From the NCBI RefSeq assembly GCF_016734905.1, contig NZ_JAERPO010000001.1, positions 1,054,001 through 1,118,000 of the forward strand: a stretch of DNA of 64,000 bases, in the 5' to 3' direction. The position numbers were made by a program, and so were the translations under genes. This DNA comes from Sphingopyxis jiangsuensis (GTDB taxonomy: Bacteria > Pseudomonadota > Alphaproteobacteria > Sphingomonadales > Sphingomonadaceae). The notes under the pieces are model-generated. The model had not been told where the DNA came from. It ran no database searches and worked only from the letters and a program-made list of their open reading frames with translations. Below are positions 20,830-37,625 of the stretch, piece by piece (the first letter of the stretch is position 1; every line of letters begins with the position of its first letter).

Positions 20830-21625
20830 CAGCGCGTCATTTCCTGTTTAGCCGTCGCCAGACCGCCTCCTTGGCCCCGCGACGAACGTCCCACGCAATC
20901 AGATTCCGAAAGCGCGTCATGTCCGAAATTTTCCACTAATATCCTCACTGTATCTGCAGAACTGTCCGTGGCGTCCTACCTCGCCGCCAATTGGTGCAAC
21001 ATCGCATAACGGGAACGCGAAACCTTTGGTGGCAAGAAATAAAACGTCGCGGACTTAGGGCATCGCCGCCGCTTGGGCAATGTCGATGACAGATTGTCCT
21101 ACCAGAAGCCGACAAGGATCGACTTGGCATTTACTGAAGGACTTCACGATCTGCGCCACCCGCAGAATACCGCTTATCCCGCCCCGCAGTCTGAATCTCG
21201 TCTTGCCAGCTTCTCGTTCCATAGAGCCTCGTCCGGCGTGTGCCACTATTGATTATGGTTCGACAGGCAGGACGAATTGCGTCTGTAGTCAGAATGCATA
21301 GCCGCAACGTCGATCCCGGCGCGGCGGGATCGTGGCAAGCTTCGCGAGAATCACCCGGCGACTAAGCGGCATCACGGGTTCCGGCAATCCCATGCAATAG
21401 TATGATTTGGAGCCGCCATGCACCCCTTCATGCACGAGCCGATTGGGATAATTATTCAACCGACACGGGCGACACTATCAACTTGTTTGGATGCGCGCCT
21501 CTCGCGCAAGTCTCGCAAGTAGTGCGCGGCGAGGCTATAGTTTTGGCGGAGACTCAGCGGCGGGTCGATCTTTGCGGTCGCGCCCGTCCGTTTTGGGCTC
21601 CGGTATCGAATGGGAAACCCGGACG
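20830..21625. other. unassigned 0.8 kb intergenic region
   Basis: No convincing gene was found here. All open frames are short, overlap each other, lack good ribosome binding sites and show no family similarity I recognise. The base composition is more mixed and codon structure is lost compared with the flanks. One perfect inverted repeat lies at 21311-21332. The region separates a minus-strand methyltransferase from the plus-strand beta-helix gene, so promoters for both should lie in it. It may also be decayed remains of an earlier gene in the polysaccharide locus. Confidence 0.5.
21311..21332. repeat. perfect 8-base inverted repeat
   Basis: CGATCCCG at 21311-21318 and CGGGATCG at 21325-21332 are perfect inverted complements around a six-base GC-rich loop. 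There is no T-run on either side, so it is more likely an operator or a folded RNA element than an intrinsic terminator. It lies 294 bases before the beta-helix gene start. Confidence 0.5.
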
Positions 21626-23131
21626 ATGATAAGGCCCGAAAATTTTCGCCAGGCTGGCGATACGCACCTGCAGCGTTTGCAGCGATTTCTCGATGCGCTC
21701 GGCGGCGGGACAGATGGCGAACTGGACGCAGATTATGTCATACCCTCGCAACTGGTCCTGAGCGGAAAATCGAACTTTAGGCTGCGCGGCAATGGTCACC
21801 GGATCAGGGTGGCTGATGGCGCTCCCACCGGCTGGGGCGGATCGGCACTCTACATCGTCCAGTGCAACGACTTCGAGATCTCCGATCTACATTGCGACGG
21901 CAACCGCGAAAGCCGCATTCCGGCAGAAGATCCGGCGCACGTAATTGTCGTCGACAAATGCCATCGGTGGCTCTTTCGCAATGTTCATGTGGTGAATGGC
22001 ACGTGCGACGGATTTCTCGTGTATGCTGGCACCGACGGAAATGGCACGGGGCCCGGCGGCGCTGTTTCTACATTGGACTTTCCTTCACGCTGGAAGCTCA
22101 AAGATTGCACCGCGCTCAACAACTTTCGACAGGGCCTGTCGATCATCGAGGGTGTAGACGCATCGATCGAAGGCGGTCGCTATGGGCTAACTCATGGACT
22201 TTGGGATACCGGAAACGGCCCTTGCGCAGGTATCATCCTCGAACCCGATGATGTTCCGTCAAGACCCGCGAATCGCATTCGCAACATCCGGCTTCAGAAT
22301 ATATTGTTCGACGGCAACCAAGGCGCCGGATTGGCGATTACGCGAGTGAACGGCGTTCGCAACATCGAGGTAGTTGACTGTATTTTTGATGCAAACAAGA
22401 AAGCTGCGATCGAATCCTTTGGCGACGAGATCGCTATATTGAGGCCGACAGTTCGCAACTGGACAAACGAGCCCTATTCAAGCCGAGCCAGCGCTCCTCC
22501 CAAACGCGGCGCTATCGACATCGGTTATCTGGCGGGCCCGACCAGTATTGCCGATCCGAAGTTCGAGTTGATTGACAACGGCGCATCGGATCATCACCCC
22601 TGCATTTATGTACATGGCGCCGCCGCTGCGGGGATCGCGATCAGCGGGATAAGGTCGGACGGGAGCGCATCGTTCATCTGCGGCGCCCATGCGCCGCGGG
22701 TCCAGGTGAGCCACAGCGTGGTCGATCTGCGGTCGTCAGTGCGCCCCGACGCCTTTGTCTTTCTGGGCGACCACGCGGTGTTCGAACATATGATGTTACT
22801 CGGTGTTTATGAACGCGCGGCCTATTTCGGCGGGAAAGCGCCGCAGATAAAGGAGAATAAATTCTATGTTCGCATCAGCCGGCCGACAACCCACATCGTC
22901 GGCGCATGGGATGCGATCGCCCCCGAGCTGCGTGGAAATCTCGTAGAATTCGAGCAACCGGTCGCATCGAAGGCGTTCTCAGTCGGACAAGACGCGACCG
23001 TTGTCGACAACAAGATCGTAAATAGCCTTAGCGATCGTCTGTTCGATTTTTCAGGTCCACCTCGAGCATCCACTGGGAATTCGCGCGCTGTCCGGCGAGC
23101 GCGAGAGAGTCCATCAGCACAAGCTCCCTGA
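21626..23131 (+). CDS. right-handed beta-helix repeat protein
   Basis: A 501-residue protein in which residues 50-440 consist of short beta-strand turns with Asn/Asp/Gly bends (for example NFRLRGNGHRI, DFEISDLHCDGN, IRLQNILFDGNQGAG, NIEVVDCIFDANKK). This pattern is that of parallel beta-helix enzymes such as pectate lyases, glycan epimerases and tailspike-type depolymerases. No N-terminal signal peptide is visible. I use the ATG at 21626; the frame is open back to 21491, but that part is Arg/Ser-rich without structure. It precedes the sugar-dehydratase and glycosyltransferase genes, so it likely acts on the locus product as a lyase or epimerase. I cannot identify catalytic residues. Confidence 0.7.
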   Translation: MIRPENFRQAGDTHLQRLQRFLDALGGGTDGELDADYVIPSQLVLSGKSNFRLRGNGHRIRVADGAPTGWGGSALYIVQCNDFEISDLHCDGNRESRIPAEDPAHVIVVDKCHRWLFRNVHVVNGTCDGFLVYAGTDGNGTGPGGAVSTLDFPSRWKLKDCTALNNFRQGLSIIEGVDASIEGGRYGLTHGLWDTGNGPCAGIILEPDDVPSRPANRIRNIRLQNILFDGNQGAGLAITRVNGVRNIEVVDCIFDANKKAAIESFGDEIAILRPTVRNWTNEPYSSRASAPPKRGAIDIGYLAGPTSIADPKFELIDNGASDHHPCIYVHGAAAAGIAISGIRSDGSASFICGAHAPRVQVSHSVVDLRSSVRPDAFVFLGDHAVFEHMMLLGVYERAAYFGGKAPQIKENKFYVRISRPTTHIVGAWDAIAPELRGNLVEFEQPVASKAFSVGQDATVVDNKIVNSLSDRLFDFSGPPRASTGNSRAVRRARESPSAQAP

Positions 23132-23305: not shown

Positions 23306-25261
23306 ATGAAAATTCTCGACCAAAATCATTGGCGCAACCTGCGGAAGGGGGGTCTCGCTTTCATCGGCGAACGGCCGCGCATTCAACGCCAGTTCGCCGC
23401 GGTGGCGATCGACGGCGCGCTATGCTTGGTTGCCGTATGGTTTGCCTTCTCGCTACGCTTGGGCGTTTGGGAGCTTTTCTCACGCCCGATCATGACGTTT
23501 GCTGCTTGCTCATTGATATTCTGGTATCCCATCGCGTGGAGGTCCGGCGTTTATCGGTCGCTCATACGATATTCCGGCTCGCGCACGGTCACGGACCTTG
23601 CGGTCGCGTGCGGGTTGCTGATTCTTCCGCTGCTGGTGGTGTGCGTCGTATTTCGTCTTCCCGGTGTGCCGCGAACGCTGAGCGTACTGCATCCGATGAT
23701 CTTTCTGCTGCTGCTAGCAGCGAGCCGCGTCGGCATTCGCTTCGCACTACTCGACCTTCTGAACGTCGTCGGCGTCAACGCGCGGCGTATGCTGGTCTAT
23801 GGCGCCGGACGCGCCGGCCAGCAGCTTGCGCTGTCCTTGCGTCATGAACCGCAAGTGCACCTCGTCGGCTTCATCGATGACGACCCGAGACTCGACGGAC
23901 AGCGGCTCGACGGCGTCCAAGTGTTCGGCTCGTTCCGCCTGCATCAAGTGTTGCACGAAACCGCCGCGGATGAGGTGCTGCTGGCGATCCCGAGCGCTTC
24001 GCGCGCACGCCGCCGGGAGATTATCGAGGAGCTGCAGAAAGAGGATGTCTACGTCCGATCGCTGCCCAGTCTGACCAATGTCATCGACGGAAGTATAACC
24101 GTCAACGATTTGCGCGAGATTCAGATCGAAGAGTTGCTCGGACGTGAACCGGTAGCCGCAAATGAATTGCTGATGGGAAGGACGATCGTTGGAAAACGAG
24201 TCCTTGTTTCGGGGGCGGGCGGATCGATCGGAAGTGAACTATGCCGACAGATAATTCGCTGCCGCCCCGCGCTGCTCGTCCTGCTCGAACAAAGCGAGTA
24301 TAGTCTTTATGCGATTGAGCGCGAACTCGACGCCATGATGAAGGCGCTTGGCCTTGCAATTCCGATCCAACTCGAACTCGCTAACGTATCCGACCGGTCA
24401 TCGATGCGACGCATATATAAGCGCCATCGCCCCGAGACCGTGCTTCATGCGGCAGCTTACAAGCATGTGCCGTTAGTTGAAGCCAATCCGCTATCGGGCC
24501 TCCGCAACAATATCATGGGGACGCTCCATAGCGTCAAGGCAGCCGAAGAGGTTGGCGTCACCAACTTCACGTTGATTAGCACCGACAAGGCGGTGCGGCC
24601 GACGAACATCATGGGCGCCTCGAAGCGGGTTTGCGAAATGATTCTGCAGGCGCGCGCGACCGAGCCGGGAGTGAAAACGATTTTCAGCATGGTGCGGTTC
24701 GGCAATGTCTTGGGGTCGAGTGGTTCGGTTGTGCCGTTGTTCAAGGCGCAGATCGCGGCCGGCGGCCCCCTGACGCTTACGCATCGGGAGATAACACGTT
24801 ACTTCATGACGATACCCGAAGCTGCACAGCTCGTCATCCAGGCAAGCGCAATGGCCAAGGGCGGCGAGGTTTTCGTTCTCGACATGGGCGAGCCGGTGCG
24901 GATCATCGACCTGGCTCGTGCCATGATCCGGCTTTCAGGCCTCAGCGTACGCGAGCCTGACCTTCCGGAGGGCGATATCGAGATTATCGAGACCGGCCTG
25001 CGACCGGGCGAGAAACTTTATGAAGAGCTACTCATCGGAAATAATCCGGAACCGACGCACCACCCGCGAATCATGCGCGCGCGCGAGGGATTGATACCCT
25101 GGGTCGAGCTGGATCGCATGATGAAGCGGCTTAACGCAGTCATTTGCGAGTCCGGCGATGCCGCCACCGCAATGCAGATCATCAGCAGCCTGGTGCCCGA
25201 ATATGCCGCCAGCGGGCAATGGCTCGGAGGTCGCGGCGATCTTGTCGAAATCGCCGAATGA
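23306..25261 (+). CDS. membrane-bound nucleotide-sugar 4,6-dehydratase (CapD/WbpM/PglF type)
   Basis: A 651-residue protein with four or five N-terminal membrane segments (about residues 30-150), a first Rossmann-like CoA-binding-type domain with VYGAGRAGQ at 164-171, and a C-terminal short-chain dehydrogenase domain from about 290. Key motifs are GAGGSIGS at 303-310 and STDKAVRPTNIMGASKR at 425-441, where the classical catalytic Tyr of YxxxK is replaced by Met in Met-Gly-Ala-Ser-Lys, as in this family. The enzyme should convert UDP-GlcNAc to UDP-4-keto-6-deoxy-GlcNAc. It is followed by the dehydrogenase/phosphoglycosyl-transferase fusion gene on the same strand. Confidence 0.9.
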   Translation: MKILDQNHWRNLRKGGLAFIGERPRIQRQFAAVAIDGALCLVAVWFAFSLRLGVWELFSRPIMTFAACSLIFWYPIAWRSGVYRSLIRYSGSRTVTDLAVACGLLILPLLVVCVVFRLPGVPRTLSVLHPMIFLLLLAASRVGIRFALLDLLNVVGVNARRMLVYGAGRAGQQLALSLRHEPQVHLVGFIDDDPRLDGQRLDGVQVFGSFRLHQVLHETAADEVLLAIPSASRARRREIIEELQKEDVYVRSLPSLTNVIDGSITVNDLREIQIEELLGREPVAANELLMGRTIVGKRVLVSGAGGSIGSELCRQIIRCRPALLVLLEQSEYSLYAIERELDAMMKALGLAIPIQLELANVSDRSSMRRIYKRHRPETVLHAAAYKHVPLVEANPLSGLRNNIMGTLHSVKAAEEVGVTNFTLISTDKAVRPTNIMGASKRVCEMILQARATEPGVKTIFSMVRFGNVLGSSGSVVPLFKAQIAAGGPLTLTHREITRYFMTIPEAAQLVIQASAMAKGGEVFVLDMGEPVRIIDLARAMIRLSGLSVREPDLPEGDIEIIETGLRPGEKLYEELLIGNNPEPTHHPRIMRAREGLIPWVELDRMMKRLNAVICESGDAATAMQIISSLVPEYAASGQWLGGRGDLVEIAE

Positions 25262-25369
25262 TTCGCCGCGGCGATAGCCGTTGACAGAGACCGGCGCGGC
25301 TGGTTGGATCCGACGGGCCGCTCCAGAGCCGCCGCCTCCCCTTCATTTGGAACCGTTTGAACCCGTGTG

Positions 25370-26614
25370 ATGATCGTCGACACTTCGCGTCCCTATGATT
25401 TCATCGTCACCGGCGCTTCCGGGAAAGTAGGCCGGCATCTGGTTCCCCTGTTAGCGCGGAACGGGCGCACGTTGCTCGCGGTCGGACGCAACTCGGACAC
25501 GCTGCGCCGCCTGTTCGCCAACCAAATAGGTTCCGTGGCAGTCGCGGACTATGGCGATCTTAAGCGCCTGCCCGGCTGCGATACGCTGATTCATCTGGCC
25601 GTGCGCAACAATGACGCACCCGGGACGCTGGCCGATTTCTCGGCGGTGAATGTGGATTTCGCATCGCAGATCGCACGCGAATTCTCGCGCATGAACGGGC
25701 GTCGTTTCCTCAATATTTCCTCTATCCTCGCGCTCGGCGACTTTGAAGAATCGCCCTATGCGGTCAGTAAGGCTATAGGAAAGCGCGCTATTCACGATAT
25801 TATCGGCGACCGTCTCGACAATGTTCACATCGGTTATTTTCATGACCGCGGATACTTCGGCGAAAGGCTCGCCTTTCTCTCCCGCTTCGGCCCTGCGGTT
25901 GGTGGTATGATATTTGCTCTGTTAAAAATGCTGAAGCCCGCGACTTCGGCGCAAAGCCTCGTCGACTATGCGCTTGGCGAACCCCATTCCCTTCCTCCAC
26001 CTGGAATATTGACCGACGACCTATCACGCTCGCGCGCCTACCGCGCCATTTCACGCTCAATGGACCTTGGTGTCGGCTTGGGCATCCTACTGCTATTCTT
26101 ACCAGTTTTTGCTGTGATCTGGATCGCGATCCGGCTCGACAGTCCGGGGCCAGCAATCTTCGCGCAGCAACGTGTCGGCGCCGCGCAGATTCCGTTCACC
26201 CTCTATAAGTTCCGGACAATGAAGCGCGATACTGTGGCCGCCGGAACGCACGAGGTCAGCTCCAGCGCCGTAACCAGGATTGGCGCGTTTCTCCGCCGGA
26301 CCAAGTTGGATGAACTACCCCAGGCGATAAATTTGCTGCGCGGGAATATGACCCTTGTGGGGCCCCGTCCCTGCCTGTACTCGCAGACCGAACTTATGCA
26401 GGCGCGCGAAGCGCTTGGGGTTTACGCACTAAAGCCGGGGATAACCGGCTATGCGCAGATCCGCGAGATCGACATGAGTAGGCCAATCGCGCTCGCGCGC
26501 AGCGACTATCGGTACAAGAAGTTGCGATCGTTGCTGCTCGATCTTCGCATCATCGTGGCAACTGCGCTCGGACGCGGTGGCGGTGATCGCATAACCGCGT
26601 CCGACCAAGTCTGA
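25370..26614 (+). CDS. fusion of short-chain dehydrogenase/epimerase and initiating phosphoglycosyl transferase
   Basis: About 414 residues in two parts (numbers count from a GTG one codon upstream). Residues 10-220 form an NAD-dependent epimerase/reductase fold: TGASGKVG at 15-22, Ser-Ser near 118-119, and YAVSK at 131-135 with the catalytic Tyr and Lys; it is shorter than a full epimerase. Residues 225-415 form a bacterial sugar transferase (PglC/WcaJ catalytic domain): hydrophobic re-entrant helix at 235-255, KFRTM at 281-285, LDELPQ at 314-319 with the catalytic Asp-Glu, VGPRP at 331-335 and KPGITGYAQ near 356-364. It should start polymer synthesis by moving a sugar phosphate to undecaprenyl phosphate. 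The start is ATG 25370 or the GTG just before. Confidence 0.88.
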
Positions 26615-26623
26615 TTGATCATC

Positions 26624-27766
26624 ATGCCGAACAAAAGGATTCTCTTCTTTGTCGGCGATGCGCCCTTTTTCGTGTCGCACCGGCTCAACCTGGTCGAGGG
26701 CGCAATCGCCGGCGGCTATGACGTCGTGGTCGCCTGTCCGACTTCGCCGGCCACCGATACGATCCAGGCGAGCGGCGCGCGATGGGTCGAATGGAAAATC
26801 GACCGCGGCGGCACGTCCATCATAGGCGAGGTTCGGACCTTTCTCGGCGCCGTCAGGATTGCCCGTGCAGCAGCTCCCACGATAATTCACGCCATAGCGC
26901 TCAAATGTATATTACATGCCGGATTCGCGTCGAAATTATTACGCGTCCCGATCGTCGGCGCGGTCTCGGGGCTCGGGTATGTCTACACCGGTGCCGCGCG
27001 CGGATCGAAAGCCGTGCTGCGACGCCTCATCAACCGCTTTATGAGCATCGGCCTCAATCGCCGGAATGCCAGTTTCATCTTCCAGAATCGCGATGACGCA
27101 AAGATGGTCGAATTCGCCCGCCTCGACAGGGCCACCGTTTACATGATCGGCGGCTCAGGCGTCGACTTGGGCGCGATCGTGATGCGGCCACACCCGGTCG
27201 GCGCGACGACCGCCGTCGGCCTCCCCGCCCGCCTGCTCCGCGACAAGGGAGTCTATGAGTTCGTCGACGCCGCACGACAGCTTCGCGAACGTGGCCGCGA
27301 TGCTCGCTTCCTGCTGATCGGCGATCCCGATCCGACCAATCCCTCGTCCGTAACGTCAAAAGAAATCGAATCCTGGGTCGCCGATGGCGCCATCGAATGG
27401 CAGCCGCATACGCACGATATCTCGACAGCGCTCGCGGCGCTCCATATTGTCGCCCTGCCGTCCTACCGTGAGGGATTTCCAAAGACGATCATCGACGCCT
27501 CCGCGGCCGGCCGCGCGTCGGTTACAAGCGATGTTCCCGGTTGCCGTGACGCAATCGTCGACGGGGTCACCGGGATTTTATGTCCGGCGAAGAATGGTGC
27601 GGCGCTGGCCGACGCGATCGACAAACTGATCCTCGATCGCAATCTCTGTATTGCCATGGGCAAAGCGGCACGGCGGCACGCCGAAACCCATTTCGATGTT
27701 CGCGAAGTCACTGCACGGCATCTTGAGATTTATCGACACAGCGAAATGCGCGGCCACCGACCCTGA
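26624..27766 (+). CDS. glycosyltransferase family 4 (PglA/CapM-like)
   Basis: About 380 residues with a GT-B fold. The N-terminal Rossmann domain starts with ILFFVGDAPFFVSHRL; the C-terminal nucleotide-binding domain has LPSYREGFPKTIIDASAAGR near residues 284-303, the equivalent of the EX7E motif with Asp for the second Glu. This family adds a sugar to a polyprenyl-linked acceptor on the cytoplasmic side of the membrane. It directly follows the initiating transferase, so it is a good candidate for the second sugar. The preferred start is ATG 26624; a TTG three codons upstream is also open. No strong ribosome binding site is visible, so coupling to the upstream gene is likely. Confidence 0.88.
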   Translation: MPNKRILFFVGDAPFFVSHRLNLVEGAIAGGYDVVVACPTSPATDTIQASGARWVEWKIDRGGTSIIGEVRTFLGAVRIARAAAPTIIHAIALKCILHAGFASKLLRVPIVGAVSGLGYVYTGAARGSKAVLRRLINRFMSIGLNRRNASFIFQNRDDAKMVEFARLDRATVYMIGGSGVDLGAIVMRPHPVGATTAVGLPARLLRDKGVYEFVDAARQLRERGRDARFLLIGDPDPTNPSSVTSKEIESWVADGAIEWQPHTHDISTALAALHIVALPSYREGFPKTIIDASAAGRASVTSDVPGCRDAIVDGVTGILCPAKNGAALADAIDKLILDRNLCIAMGKAARRHAETHFDVREVTARHLEIYRHSEMRGHRP

Positions 27767-27800: not shown

Positions 27801-29744
27801 TCACCTCGTTGCTTGAGCGTCAAGCCAAGCCTGGAACATCAGCACGTCCCAAACGTGATAGTGCAGTCGCCGACGACCGCTGCGTGTGTCGGACCACAGC
27901 CGGGCGACGGCTTCGGCATCGAAATAGCCGTCGCGCCGCAAACGGTCGGGTGCGAGCAGATCATCCGCCCACGACCGAAGCGGCCCGCGGAGCCAATGCT
28001 CGATCGGCACGCCGAAACCCATCTTGGGTCGCTCCATCATCTCGCGCGGTACGTACCGATAAAGAAGTTGACGCAGCGGCCATTTCGCCTCGTCGCCGCG
28101 GAGCTTGTACGACAGCGGAAGCGCGAGCGCGAATTCGACGACGCGGTGGTCGAGCAACGGCACGCGCGATTCCAGACTGACGGCCATGCTGGCCCGATCA
28201 ACCTTCACCAATATATCGTCGGGCAGGTAGCTGCGCATATCGAGATACATCATCCGATCCCGGAAATCGCCGTCCGTGGGCCAGTCCGGATCGGACTCGG
28301 TCAAGATCGTCACCGGCTCGTGCGCGCCAGGCACGAGCGCTGACGGGTTCTTGGCATGTGACACCAGCGAGCGGTAGAAATCGTCAGCACGCTCGACGTT
28401 CAGCACATCGGCAAGCTTGAGCATCCGATCGCCAACCGCCATCTTACGAAGCCGTTCGGGTGCAAACTTCATCGCCCCGTCGATAAGGTTCGCGGGCGTC
28501 ATGCGAAGCATAGCCGCGGCCAGCGTGCGGGCACCGCGCGGCATCCTGCCGAGACGACGCCAGATATCATAGCCTTGGGCGTAACGGGTGTATCCGCAGA
28601 ACAGTTCGTCGCCGCCGTCGCCCGACAGGCTGACGGTCACTTCCGATCGAGCAAGGCGGCTGACCAATAGCGTCGGAATTTGCGAGGAATCAGCGAAGGG
28701 TTCGTCCCAGTGATGCGGCAGGATCGGGATCTGATCGAGCGCATCCTGCGGTGTGACATAGAGTTCGGTGTGGTCGGTACCGAGGTGCGTCGCGACCCGC
28801 TTTGCATGATGCGCCTCGTCATATTCGGCTTCGGAAAAGCCGATCGAGAAGGTTTTGACCGGGCGCGCCGATCGATGCTGCATCAGCGCGACGATTGTGC
28901 TGGAATCATAGCCGCCGGACAAGAAAGCCCCGAGCGGAACGTCGGCCGCCATCCGAATCCCGACCGCATCGAGCAGCAGTGTCTCGAGAGCGTCGACCGA
29001 TTCCTGGGCCGATCCCGAAAAGGGGGTGTCGCGCCCCGCTTTCGCTTTCGCTGCGATGTCCCAGTAGGCGACAGATGCAGGAAGTGCCACATCGTTGACG
29101 CCGATCTCAAGATAATGCGCAGGTGGTAGCTTCTGAATGCCTTCGAAGATCGAGCCGGGTCCGGGGACATAATTGTGGCGCAGAAACAACGCCAGCGCGT
29201 CGCGGTTCACGCCTGCACGCCACGCCGGATGCTGGCGAAGCGCCTTGAGTTCCGACCCGAAGAGCAATGTATTGCCCTGCAGGCCGTAATAAAGCGGCTT
29301 TTCGCCCATCCGGTCGCGTGCCAAGAACAGCTTTCGCTCCCCCTTGTCCCAGAGTGCCAGTGCGAACATGCCGTTCACGCGATCGAGCGTCCCCGGCACG
29401 CCCCAAGCCGAAAAGCCCTGAAGCAGCGTTTCGGTATCCGAATGGCCCCGCCATCCGATTTGGCCGTTCGCTTCGAGTTCGCGCCGCAGATCGAGGTGAT
29501 TATAGATTTCGCCGTTGTAGCTCAGGACAAATCGGCCGTCGTGGCTTGCCATCGGCTGATGTCCGGCAGGGGACAGGTCCATAATCGCCAGCCTGCGATG
29601 CGCCAGCGCGATCCCAGCCTCTCCATCGACCCAATAGCCGTCGCTATCCGGCCCACGATGCACGAGCGTATCGGCCATCCGGCGCAGCACGGCTTCGCCG
29701 TCGGCAAATCCCGCCCGATCGAGAAACCCTGCAAAACCACACAT
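27801..29744 (-). CDS. asnB: asparagine synthase-like glutamine amidotransferase
   Basis: A 647-residue class II amidotransferase. Cys2 is the glutaminase nucleophile; HRRLAIMDLS (49-58) and NGEIYNH (77-83) belong to the glutaminase domain, and SGGYDSS (276-282) is the ATP-binding loop of the synthetase domain. The family makes asparagine or amidates other carboxylates. Its place inside a polysaccharide locus with several uronic-acid-forming dehydrogenases suggests that it amidates a uronic acid, as WbpS does in Pseudomonas O-antigen loci, though plain asparagine synthesis is possible. Its ATG overlaps the stop of the upstream glycosyltransferase (TAATG). Confidence 0.88.
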   Translation of the reverse strand: MCGFAGFLDRAGFADGEAVLRRMADTLVHRGPDSDGYWVDGEAGIALAHRRLAIMDLSPAGHQPMASHDGRFVLSYNGEIYNHLDLRRELEANGQIGWRGHSDTETLLQGFSAWGVPGTLDRVNGMFALALWDKGERKLFLARDRMGEKPLYYGLQGNTLLFGSELKALRQHPAWRAGVNRDALALFLRHNYVPGPGSIFEGIQKLPPAHYLEIGVNDVALPASVAYWDIAAKAKAGRDTPFSGSAQESVDALETLLLDAVGIRMAADVPLGAFLSGGYDSSTIVALMQHRSARPVKTFSIGFSEAEYDEAHHAKRVATHLGTDHTELYVTPQDALDQIPILPHHWDEPFADSSQIPTLLVSRLARSEVTVSLSGDGGDELFCGYTRYAQGYDIWRRLGRMPRGARTLAAAMLRMTPANLIDGAMKFAPERLRKMAVGDRMLKLADVLNVERADDFYRSLVSHAKNPSALVPGAHEPVTILTESDPDWPTDGDFRDRMMYLDMRSYLPDDILVKVDRASMAVSLESRVPLLDHRVVEFALALPLSYKLRGDEAKWPLRQLLYRYVPREMMERPKMGFGVPIEHWLRGPLRSWADDLLAPDRLRRDGYFDAEAVARLWSDTRSGRRRLHYHVWDVLMFQAWLDAQATR

Positions 29745-36326: not shown

Positions 36327-37625
36327 TTAGATGCGCAAATCGCTCTCGTCGAAGCCCAGCGTCCCCTTGATGTCGACCAGCACCGACGATGCATTGCCGA
36401 ACTTGCGCAAGGCCTGCGCGCCCGCATCGACAAACTCACGATGCGACACCGCCAGGATGACCGCATCATAACCGCCCTGCGGGGCGTCGAGAATCTCGAT
36501 TCCATATTCGTGGCGGGCTTCGTCTGCGTCGACCCATGGATCATATACGTCGATTTGCGCACCATAGTCCCGAAACTCGCTGATCAGGTCGATGACTCGC
36601 GTATTGCGGATATCTGGGCAATTTTCCTTGAATGCCAGCCCCAGCACGAGGATGCGCGCGCTCTGGACAGGAAGGCCTCGTCTGATCATCAACCGGATGA
36701 CCTGGCCGGCAATATACCCGCCCATGCCGTCGTTGACGCGGCGCCCGGCCAGGATGACTTGCGGGTGATAGCCGACCGCCTGCGCCTTGTGCGTCAGATA
36801 ATAGGGGTCGACGCCGATACAGTGCCCTCCGACTAGTCCCGGCGTAAATTTCAGGAAATTCCACTTGGTTCCTGCGGCTTCCAGCACACTGTGCGTGTCG
36901 ATGCCGAGCCGGCCGAAGATGATTGACAGCTCGTTCATCAGCGCGATGTTCAGGTCGCGCTGCGTATTTTCGATCACCTTTGCCGCTTCGGCGACCTTGA
37001 TACTTTCGGCGCAGAAGGTTCCAGCGGTGATGATCTCAGCATAAAGGCGATCGACCCATTCGGCGGCCTCAACCGTCGAACCGCTCGTCACCTTCCGGAT
37101 GGTCGGGAGGCGGTGCTCCTTGTCGCCCGGATTAATCCGTTCGGGGCTGTAGCCGACAAAAAAATCCCGGTTGAACTTAAGGCCGCTCACTCGTTCAAGG
37201 ATCGGTACGCAATCTTCCTCGGTACAGCCTGGATAGACGGTGCTTTCATAAATTACGATGTCGCCGCGTTTGAGCACGCGGCCAACCGTCTCCGACGCCT
37301 TCACAAGCGGCGACAGATCGGGGCGTTTATGCGCATCAATCGGCGTCGGCACCGTCACGATATAGATACGAGCTTGCTCAAGATCGGACGTATTGTCCGA
37401 AAAATTGAGATGCGCGGCGGCGGCGAGTTCGTCCGACGTCGTCTCCATTGTATCGTCACGCCCCATCCGGAGCGCTGCGATACGGTCGCTATTGATATCG
37501 AAGCCGACAACCGCCCGAACGCGGCCGAATTCGACCGCAAGCGGCAAGCCCACATAACCGAGGCCGATGACGGCGATGGCAGCCGTATCGAAATCGGGCA
37601 GCGGTGCGATCTGATCGGAAATCAT
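36327..37625 (-). CDS. UDP-sugar 6-dehydrogenase, TviB/WbpA-like
   Basis: A 432-residue nucleotide-sugar dehydrogenase. GLGYVG is at 21-26, YESTVYPGCTEEDC near 126-139, and the catalytic Cys is residue 269 in GGHCIGVDPYYL. The sequence is closest to TviB (VipA), which oxidises UDP-GlcNAc or UDP-GalNAc to the uronic acid. The start overlaps the stop of the 4-epimerase gene as ATGA, so the two enzymes are likely translated together. The TviB/TviC logic, dehydrogenase plus 4-epimerase, would give UDP-GalNAcA or a related uronic acid donor. The exact substrate is inferred. Confidence 0.87.
   Translation of the reverse strand: MISDQIAPLPDFDTAAIAVIGLGYVGLPLAVEFGRVRAVVGFDINSDRIAALRMGRDDTMETTSDELAAAAHLNFSDNTSDLEQARIYIVTVPTPIDAHKRPDLSPLVKASETVGRVLKRGDIVIYESTVYPGCTEEDCVPILERVSGLKFNRDFFVGYSPERINPGDKEHRLPTIRKVTSGSTVEAAEWVDRLYAEIITAGTFCAESIKVAEAAKVIENTQRDLNIALMNELSIIFGRLGIDTHSVLEAAGTKWNFLKFTPGLVGGHCIGVDPYYLTHKAQAVGYHPQVILAGRRVNDGMGGYIAGQVIRLMIRRGLPVQSARILVLGLAFKENCPDIRNTRVIDLISEFRDYGAQIDVYDPWVDADEARHEYGIEILDAPQGGYDAVILAVSHREFVDAGAQALRKFGNASSVLVDIKGTLGFDESDLRI

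Follow-up and report, generated by a model that had tools for sequence, protein, structure and literature searches.

Are the deoxy-sugars of bacterial polysaccharides finished as nucleotide sugars, or can the last step follow their transfer to the lipid carrier? The textbook view is that they are completed at the nucleotide level before use; work on Rhizobium etli suggests that some are completed on lipid. The question is raised by two tandem genes within 64,000 nucleotides of Sphingopyxis jiangsuensis DNA (contig NZ_JAERPO010000001.1, positions 1,054,001 to 1,118,000; the whole stretch is referred to as the window), the second of which joins a shortened short-chain dehydrogenase/reductase (SDR) domain to a monotopic phosphoglycosyl transferase (PGT). 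We consider it probable that this fusion couples the transferase to a reductase that acts after transfer, on the lipid-linked keto sugar.

A dehydratase gene followed by an SDR-PGT fusion gene

The first gene (23,306–25,261, forward strand) encodes a 651-residue protein with the features of the long CapD/PglF-type UDP-N-acetylglucosamine (GlcNAc) 4,6-dehydratases, namely PF02719 (E = 1.2e-116), an N-terminal PF13727 domain (E = 6.7e-12) and an N-terminal membrane part, the last judged from sequence alone. Its SDR motif GAGGSIG and its STDKAV...MGASK sequence resemble those of long PglF/WbpM-type 4,6-dehydratases and are conserved among homologues. The second gene (25,367–26,614, forward strand, with its start at GTG 25,367 or ATG 25,370) is a single open frame, uninterrupted by a stop, for a protein of 415 residues in which Pfam identifies Epimerase (PF01370, residues 13–145, E = 7.4e-10) and then Bac_transf (PF02397, residues 230–400, E = 1.9e-46). 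The original prediction, made from the DNA letters, had placed a CapD gene and a fused SDR-PGT gene here and had named motifs retained by the latter; both open reading frames and their domains were confirmed, and each of the motifs was located in the fusion protein, all on the forward strand.

The C-terminal half (residues 215–415, 26,009–26,611) is a monotopic PGT by its Bac_transf core, its KFRTM motif (residues 281–285, 26,207–26,221), which is invariant in our alignment, and its LDELPQ motif (residues 314–319, 26,306–26,323), which is present in all aligned homologues that reach that site and supplies the PGT catalytic Asp-Glu pair (D315-E316). The best structure match of this half was PglC (8g1n), and the PDB profile match was 8e37 (E = 5.7e-37). 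From these likenesses it is predicted to transfer a sugar-1-phosphate to undecaprenyl phosphate. As one open reading frame in which an extra domain, presumably a functional SDR, is joined to the core, the protein belongs with the bifunctional monotopic PGTs (Bi-PGTs); a Pfam search gave no match to PF13727 in the fusion protein, which sets it apart from the large PGTs (Lg-PGTs), whose PGT core is preceded by a four-helix membrane bundle and PF13727.

A shortened reductase domain that retains its catalytic residues

The N-terminal half (residues 1–213, the SDR itself from about residue 10; 25,367–26,005) was aligned with full-length SDRs and Escherichia coli GalE. Short fusions of this kind in other genomes (described below) retain the cofactor glycines G16, G19 and G22 of TGASGKVG (residues 15–22, 25,409–25,432; invariant in all aligned rows), Asn95 of the catalytic tetrad (25,649–25,651), Ser119 (25,721–25,723; the second serine of the Ser-Ser pair S118-S119 and, by column mapping, the equivalent of GalE Ser124), and Tyr131 and Lys135 of YAVSK, the YxxxK motif (25,757–25,771). 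The exceptions are the fusion of Sphingopyxis panaciterrae (L009) and a Thr for Ser119 in L032. The original prediction would have been undermined had the SDR domain always been decayed; only L009 is. As it had also proposed, we modeled the structure: AlphaFold2 of the SDR half alone gave a pLDDT of 88 and the Rossmann order of elements, and the structure matches were SDRs at Z 16–18, NAD(P)-bound ones included. These matches did not serve to name the function of the domain, as the SDR rows tie at that Z and the membrane-facing SDRs among the top ones (NDUFA9 of complex I, and NSDHL) are not discriminating.

The short fusions thus have the TGxxGxxG motif, Asn-Ser-Tyr-Lys tetrad and Rossmann fold of the SDR superfamily, but not the full-length C-terminal substrate domain of the extended, WbpV/WreQ-like SDRs, which are proteins of about 300 residues. 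All of them lack the C-terminal ~100 residues of the latter, together with a loop of ~15 residues before Tyr131. The missing C-terminal part is where GalE has Arg292, Asp295 and Tyr299, which are contacts to UDP. By contrast, the position of GalE Arg231, a phosphate contact, is occupied by Lys or Arg in all fusions according to the column mapping. A hydrophobic helical stretch, predicted as helices by AlphaFold2 (residues 165–189, 25,859–25,933), lies beside the SDR active site and possibly makes contact with membrane or lipid. Judged by gene context, the fused SDR would reduce C4 of a 4-keto-6-deoxy-N-acetylhexosamine (HexNAc), either UDP- or lipid-linked.

A probable order: transfer followed by reduction

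In the order we favor, the PGT half, working on the cytoplasmic side of the membrane, would first load 4-keto-6-deoxy-HexNAc-1-phosphate onto undecaprenyl phosphate; the SDR to which it is fused would then use NAD(P)H to reduce the sugar, now lipid-linked, at C4. The product would be undecaprenyl-diphosphate (Und-PP)-linked N-acetylquinovosamine (QuiNAc) or N-acetylfucosamine (FucNAc), between which sequence does not distinguish, and a Wzx/Wzy-type polysaccharide would begin with this sugar; the glycosyltransferase encoded by the next gene would probably add the second one. The activities of both halves, their order and the identity of the sugar are thus predictions. If the substrate is attached to lipid, the SDR could afford to lose its uridine-binding half while retaining the cofactor fold, the catalytic residues, the basic residue expected to face the diphosphate and the hydrophobic helix. 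A chain from transfer to reduction would explain at once the fusion, the shrinkage of the reductase and the hydrophobic helix bordering its active site. PglC-type PGTs have a re-entrant topology in which both the N-terminus and the active site are cytoplasmic, which would place the fused SDR on the correct face of the membrane.

Studies of QuiNAc initiation in R. etli bear on the order of steps. Li and Noel reportedly found that WreU favored the UDP-keto sugar and that WreQ worked much more rapidly once the sugar was attached to lipid. The title of their paper places completion of the reduction after lipid linkage (Li and Noel, 2017; PMC11320575). Some transferase must accept an un-reduced donor, because reductase mutants build the 4-keto sugar into polymer: in Francisella, this was seen by mass spectrometry and nuclear magnetic resonance in mutants of the reductase WbtC (PMC4141488), and an R. 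etli reductase mutant likewise carries a 4-keto sugar in its polymer, according to the title of Forsberg (2003).

Several points weigh against this order. Full-length SDRs are fused to PGTs as well (L013, L146, and L150), and loss of the C-terminal part is therefore unnecessary for fusion. The uridine contacts were mapped from GalE, so the missing half bears on the substrate only indirectly; moreover, the GalE residues at 292–299 are not conserved in full-length WreQ-like SDRs either, which leaves the absence of the segment, rather than any individual residue, as the basis of the argument. The 165–189 helix, which lies between GalE-mapped points, is more hydrophobic in ten fusions than in eight full-length SDRs, without overlap, but the P-value (Mann-Whitney P = 2e-5) ignores shared descent. 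A stand-alone WreQ-like SDR was found in 11 of 51 CapD genomes without the fusion, in none of 19 without CapD and in none of five with the fusion, which agrees with replacement of the stand-alone SDR by the fusion but is not significant alone, as about one in the five would be expected. Finally, the SDR is dead in L009, so there is at least one case in which reduction can be dispensed with.

L009 amounts to a natural knock-out. The fusion of S. panaciterrae (L009:6001–7212) has a deletion through Asn95, and Gln and Glu replace Tyr131 and Lys135, turning YxxxK into QxxxE. Its CapD is intact, as is its PGT half, which is 68–74% identical to those of close relatives. Were reduction obligatorily first, this fusion would be useless; its conserved PGT half fits transfer first. 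In that event the L009 polysaccharide is predicted to begin with a 4-keto sugar, although an unrelated SDR may reduce the keto sugar instead; a search of 11 short-fusion genomes, this one (G1026) included, found no stand-alone WreQ-like SDR in it. With less confidence than the order itself, and as somewhat less likely than not, we entertain a stricter version in which the SDR, being without its nucleotide-binding half, acts only on the Und-PP-linked keto sugar, hard-wired behind its transferase, and in which the S. panaciterrae reductase is dead and the polysaccharide starts with a free 4-keto sugar.

The original prediction had the steps in the opposite order, with the SDR half reducing the UDP-keto sugar and the PGT half transferring the product. 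The retention of the SDR catalytic residues that it pointed out is borne out in every short fusion except L009. That reduction precedes transfer now appears unlikely to us, even though the classical WbpV/WreQ and Bacillus cereus Preq schemes reduce the UDP-sugar, the full set of SDR catalytic residues is present and fusing the two domains would protect an unstable intermediate. The fused SDR is missing the half with which GalE-type SDRs bind uridine but still has a basic residue where the diphosphate would lie, the polymers of the reductase mutants indicate a transferase that takes the un-reduced donor, and the R. etli title gives the opposite order.

We regard as more doubtful still the idea that the SDR half serves chiefly as a Rossmann domain for structure or regulation, comparable to PF13727 of the large PGTs, and that the enzyme transfers any CapD-derived UDP-sugar it meets. 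The tetrad and glycine motif are kept in all other short fusions, down to about 30–40% identity, and stand-alone reductases are regular neighbors of such PGTs. What recommends the idea is again L009, in which the whole fusion is kept, with PGT and CapD intact, despite the loss of Asn95, Tyr and Lys; in addition, evolution has been faster in the SDR half than in the PGT half (pN/pS, the ratio of nonsynonymous to synonymous differences, of 0.29–0.43 and 0.15–0.35, respectively, with synonymous sites near saturation), and large PGTs are described as carrying a regulatory nucleotide-binding domain (PMC10942596). Identity of the SDR half with PF13727 was rejected, since Pfam assigns it to Epimerase instead. 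It is improbable that CapD serves another step and that the SDR, perhaps a C4 epimerase, acts on a different sugar, whether carried by lipid or by nucleotide: the clusters vary (L093 and Deinococcus L146 have genes resembling an L-FucNAc set) and sugar epimerases stand among the top structure matches, tied with many other SDRs, but CapD is present in every fusion genome.

Association with CapD and the un-fused arrangement

The partnership with CapD claimed by the original prediction was supported. Each of the 12 fusion genomes (12/12) has one long CapD, which adjoins the fusion in the window, L003, L007, L009, L032, L145, and L013; in a sample of the family, a long CapD was found in 84 of 298 genomes as against all five with the fusion (5/5; hypergeometric P = 0.0016).

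The original prediction had cited pathways with separate dehydratase, reductase and transferase proteins, and stand-alone reductase, PGT and CapD genes do lie side by side in Gammaproteobacteria, Alphaproteobacteria, and Firmicutes; many bacteria have a WbpV/WreQ-like SDR gene of full length immediately next to the PGT and CapD genes. In L096–L100 the PGT gene comes after a full-length SDR gene (in L096–L099 in the same frame and only a few codons apart), the order in L014, L015, L019, and L081 is CapD, PGT, SDR, and within the window's own family genome G297, which shares its genus with the fusion-bearing G229, has all three as separate genes. From such an SDR-PGT pair a full-length fusion could arise by loss of one or two stop codons; the short form would require loss of the SDR C-terminus too. 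Across the 11 short-fusion genomes searched, no clear stand-alone WreQ-like SDR was found, the best of two weak general SDR matches being at 9e-15.

Distribution and origins of the fusion

The genome survey that the original prediction had called for returned ten further short fusions in Alphaproteobacteria, of the same architecture and 74% to 40% identity, plus one contig-end fragment (L012); their occurrence in independent genomes rules out chance or an assembly or sequencing artifact. In the family sample, five of 298 genomes have the fusion (the window's own included), and in a class-wide sample (n = 385) the sole full-length match was the window's own genome. A scan of 84,980 species genomes, seeded with short peptides of the window protein and hence biased to close kin, found the short form in Sphingopyxis, Sphingobium, Sphingomonas, and Aliihoeflea and, in a Rhizobiaceae metagenome-assembled genome (MAG), a fragment at a contig end. 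A plasmid collection contributed one more, from Sulfitobacter pontiacus (L145), in the order CapD, fusion, family 4 glycosyltransferase (GT4) beside repABC. Some candidates were discarded: L018 has only Bac_transf by Pfam, and the Rhizobium plasmid matches H28 and H26, which looked fused in tblastn, are separate adjacent frames, as is L151.

Two of these loci have mobile-element or transposase-like genes nearby. The S. pontiacus trio (L145:5967–10,450, plasmid unnamed04), ordered as in the window, is carried by a plasmid classed as mobilizable, IS66 genes lie close by, and the trio may travel as a cassette. In Sphingobium ummariense RL-3 (L008:4051–8976), two transposase-like open reading frames with identical ends lie upstream of the fusion and another transposase-like frame lies downstream; its CapD (59% identity) is on a separate contig.

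In a PGT tree, which left out the Sulfitobacter fusion, the PGT halves of ten short fusions and the Rhizobiaceae piece formed one clade (support 100/94). A Desulfuromonadaceae MAG (L013) has the same PGT type joined to an SDR of full length, with CapD coming next, and its PGT clusters with un-fused gammaproteobacterial PGTs (support 100/97); fusion therefore occurred more than once, and a single origin of all SDR-PGT fusions is ruled out. L150 is a second full-length-SDR fusion of the L013 type, and Deinococcus ficus (L146, WP_027462200.1) has a third kind, also with a full-length SDR. The fusion loci L093:4659–8054 and L146:1390–4669 adjoin L-FucNAc-like genes, where the fused PGT may set the sugar that receives L-FucNAc.

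The surrounding polysaccharide cluster

A GT4 gene (26,615–27,766, forward strand; PF13692/PF00534), whose product is the probable second-sugar transferase, lies directly downstream of the fusion, as in L003, L007, and L010; a GT4 gene also follows the fusion in L145. The wider cluster in the window includes an EpsG-like protein, more glycosyltransferases, a Wzc-like kinase, an export protein, a TviB-type dehydrogenase and an AsnB-like amidotransferase, and by this gene content it appears to be an ordinary Wzx/Wzy-type polysaccharide cluster. The UDP-GlcNAc 6-dehydrogenase (TviB, over the NCBIfam cut-off; 36,327–37,625) and the amidotransferase (27,801–29,744) together suggest that the polymer contains an amidated hexosaminuronic acid, as do Pseudomonas aeruginosa O6-like O antigens. 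A beta-helix protein (21,491–23,131), possibly a polysaccharide lyase or modifying enzyme, is encoded upstream of CapD, and likewise in the same-genus relative L090.

Relation to known systems and significance

The original prediction had presented the fusion as a departure from known systems, which it is not: the architecture is recurrent and already known to annotators, NCBI having the name "hybrid nucleoside-diphosphate sugar epimerase/sugar transferase" for the D. ficus protein, with N-terminal SDR and C-terminal PGT as in the window. That hybrid differs in its length (522 residues), full-length SDR, L-FucNAc-like neighbors and a PGT without the PRPCLxxQ and IDMS motifs. What is new is the short-SDR form, a single alphaproteobacterial clade within the known SDR-PGT hybrids and Bi-PGTs. 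The latter are described as having a functional domain on the monotopic PGT core, as here, in an account that, in the part available, names neither this SDR type nor its order of steps (PMC10942596).

The same three activities (dehydratase, 4-reductase, and PGT) are expected as in QuiNAc initiation by R. etli WreV/WreQ/WreU. Those are three proteins, whereas in the window reductase and PGT are one chain, with a reductase shorter than the WbpV/WreQ-like SDRs compared (a set to which WreQ and WreU themselves did not belong). WbpV/WbtC-type 4-reductases, of similar SDR type and likewise encoded beside PGT and CapD/WbpM genes, are separate, full-length SDRs of about 280–320 residues in the loci examined. 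Campylobacter PglC (8g1n, 8e37) shares the core fold and the Asp-Glu pair but has no SDR domain, and its donor is UDP-di-N-acetylbacillosamine.

If our reading is correct, a transferase-reductase protein of several independent origins, whose reductase is without the usual UDP-sugar pocket, would allow the order of the two steps to be tested with a single purified protein and would illustrate how genomes can reveal the tailoring of sugars on lipid. The decayed copy of S. panaciterrae offers a natural test, a keto sugar being expected in its polymer.
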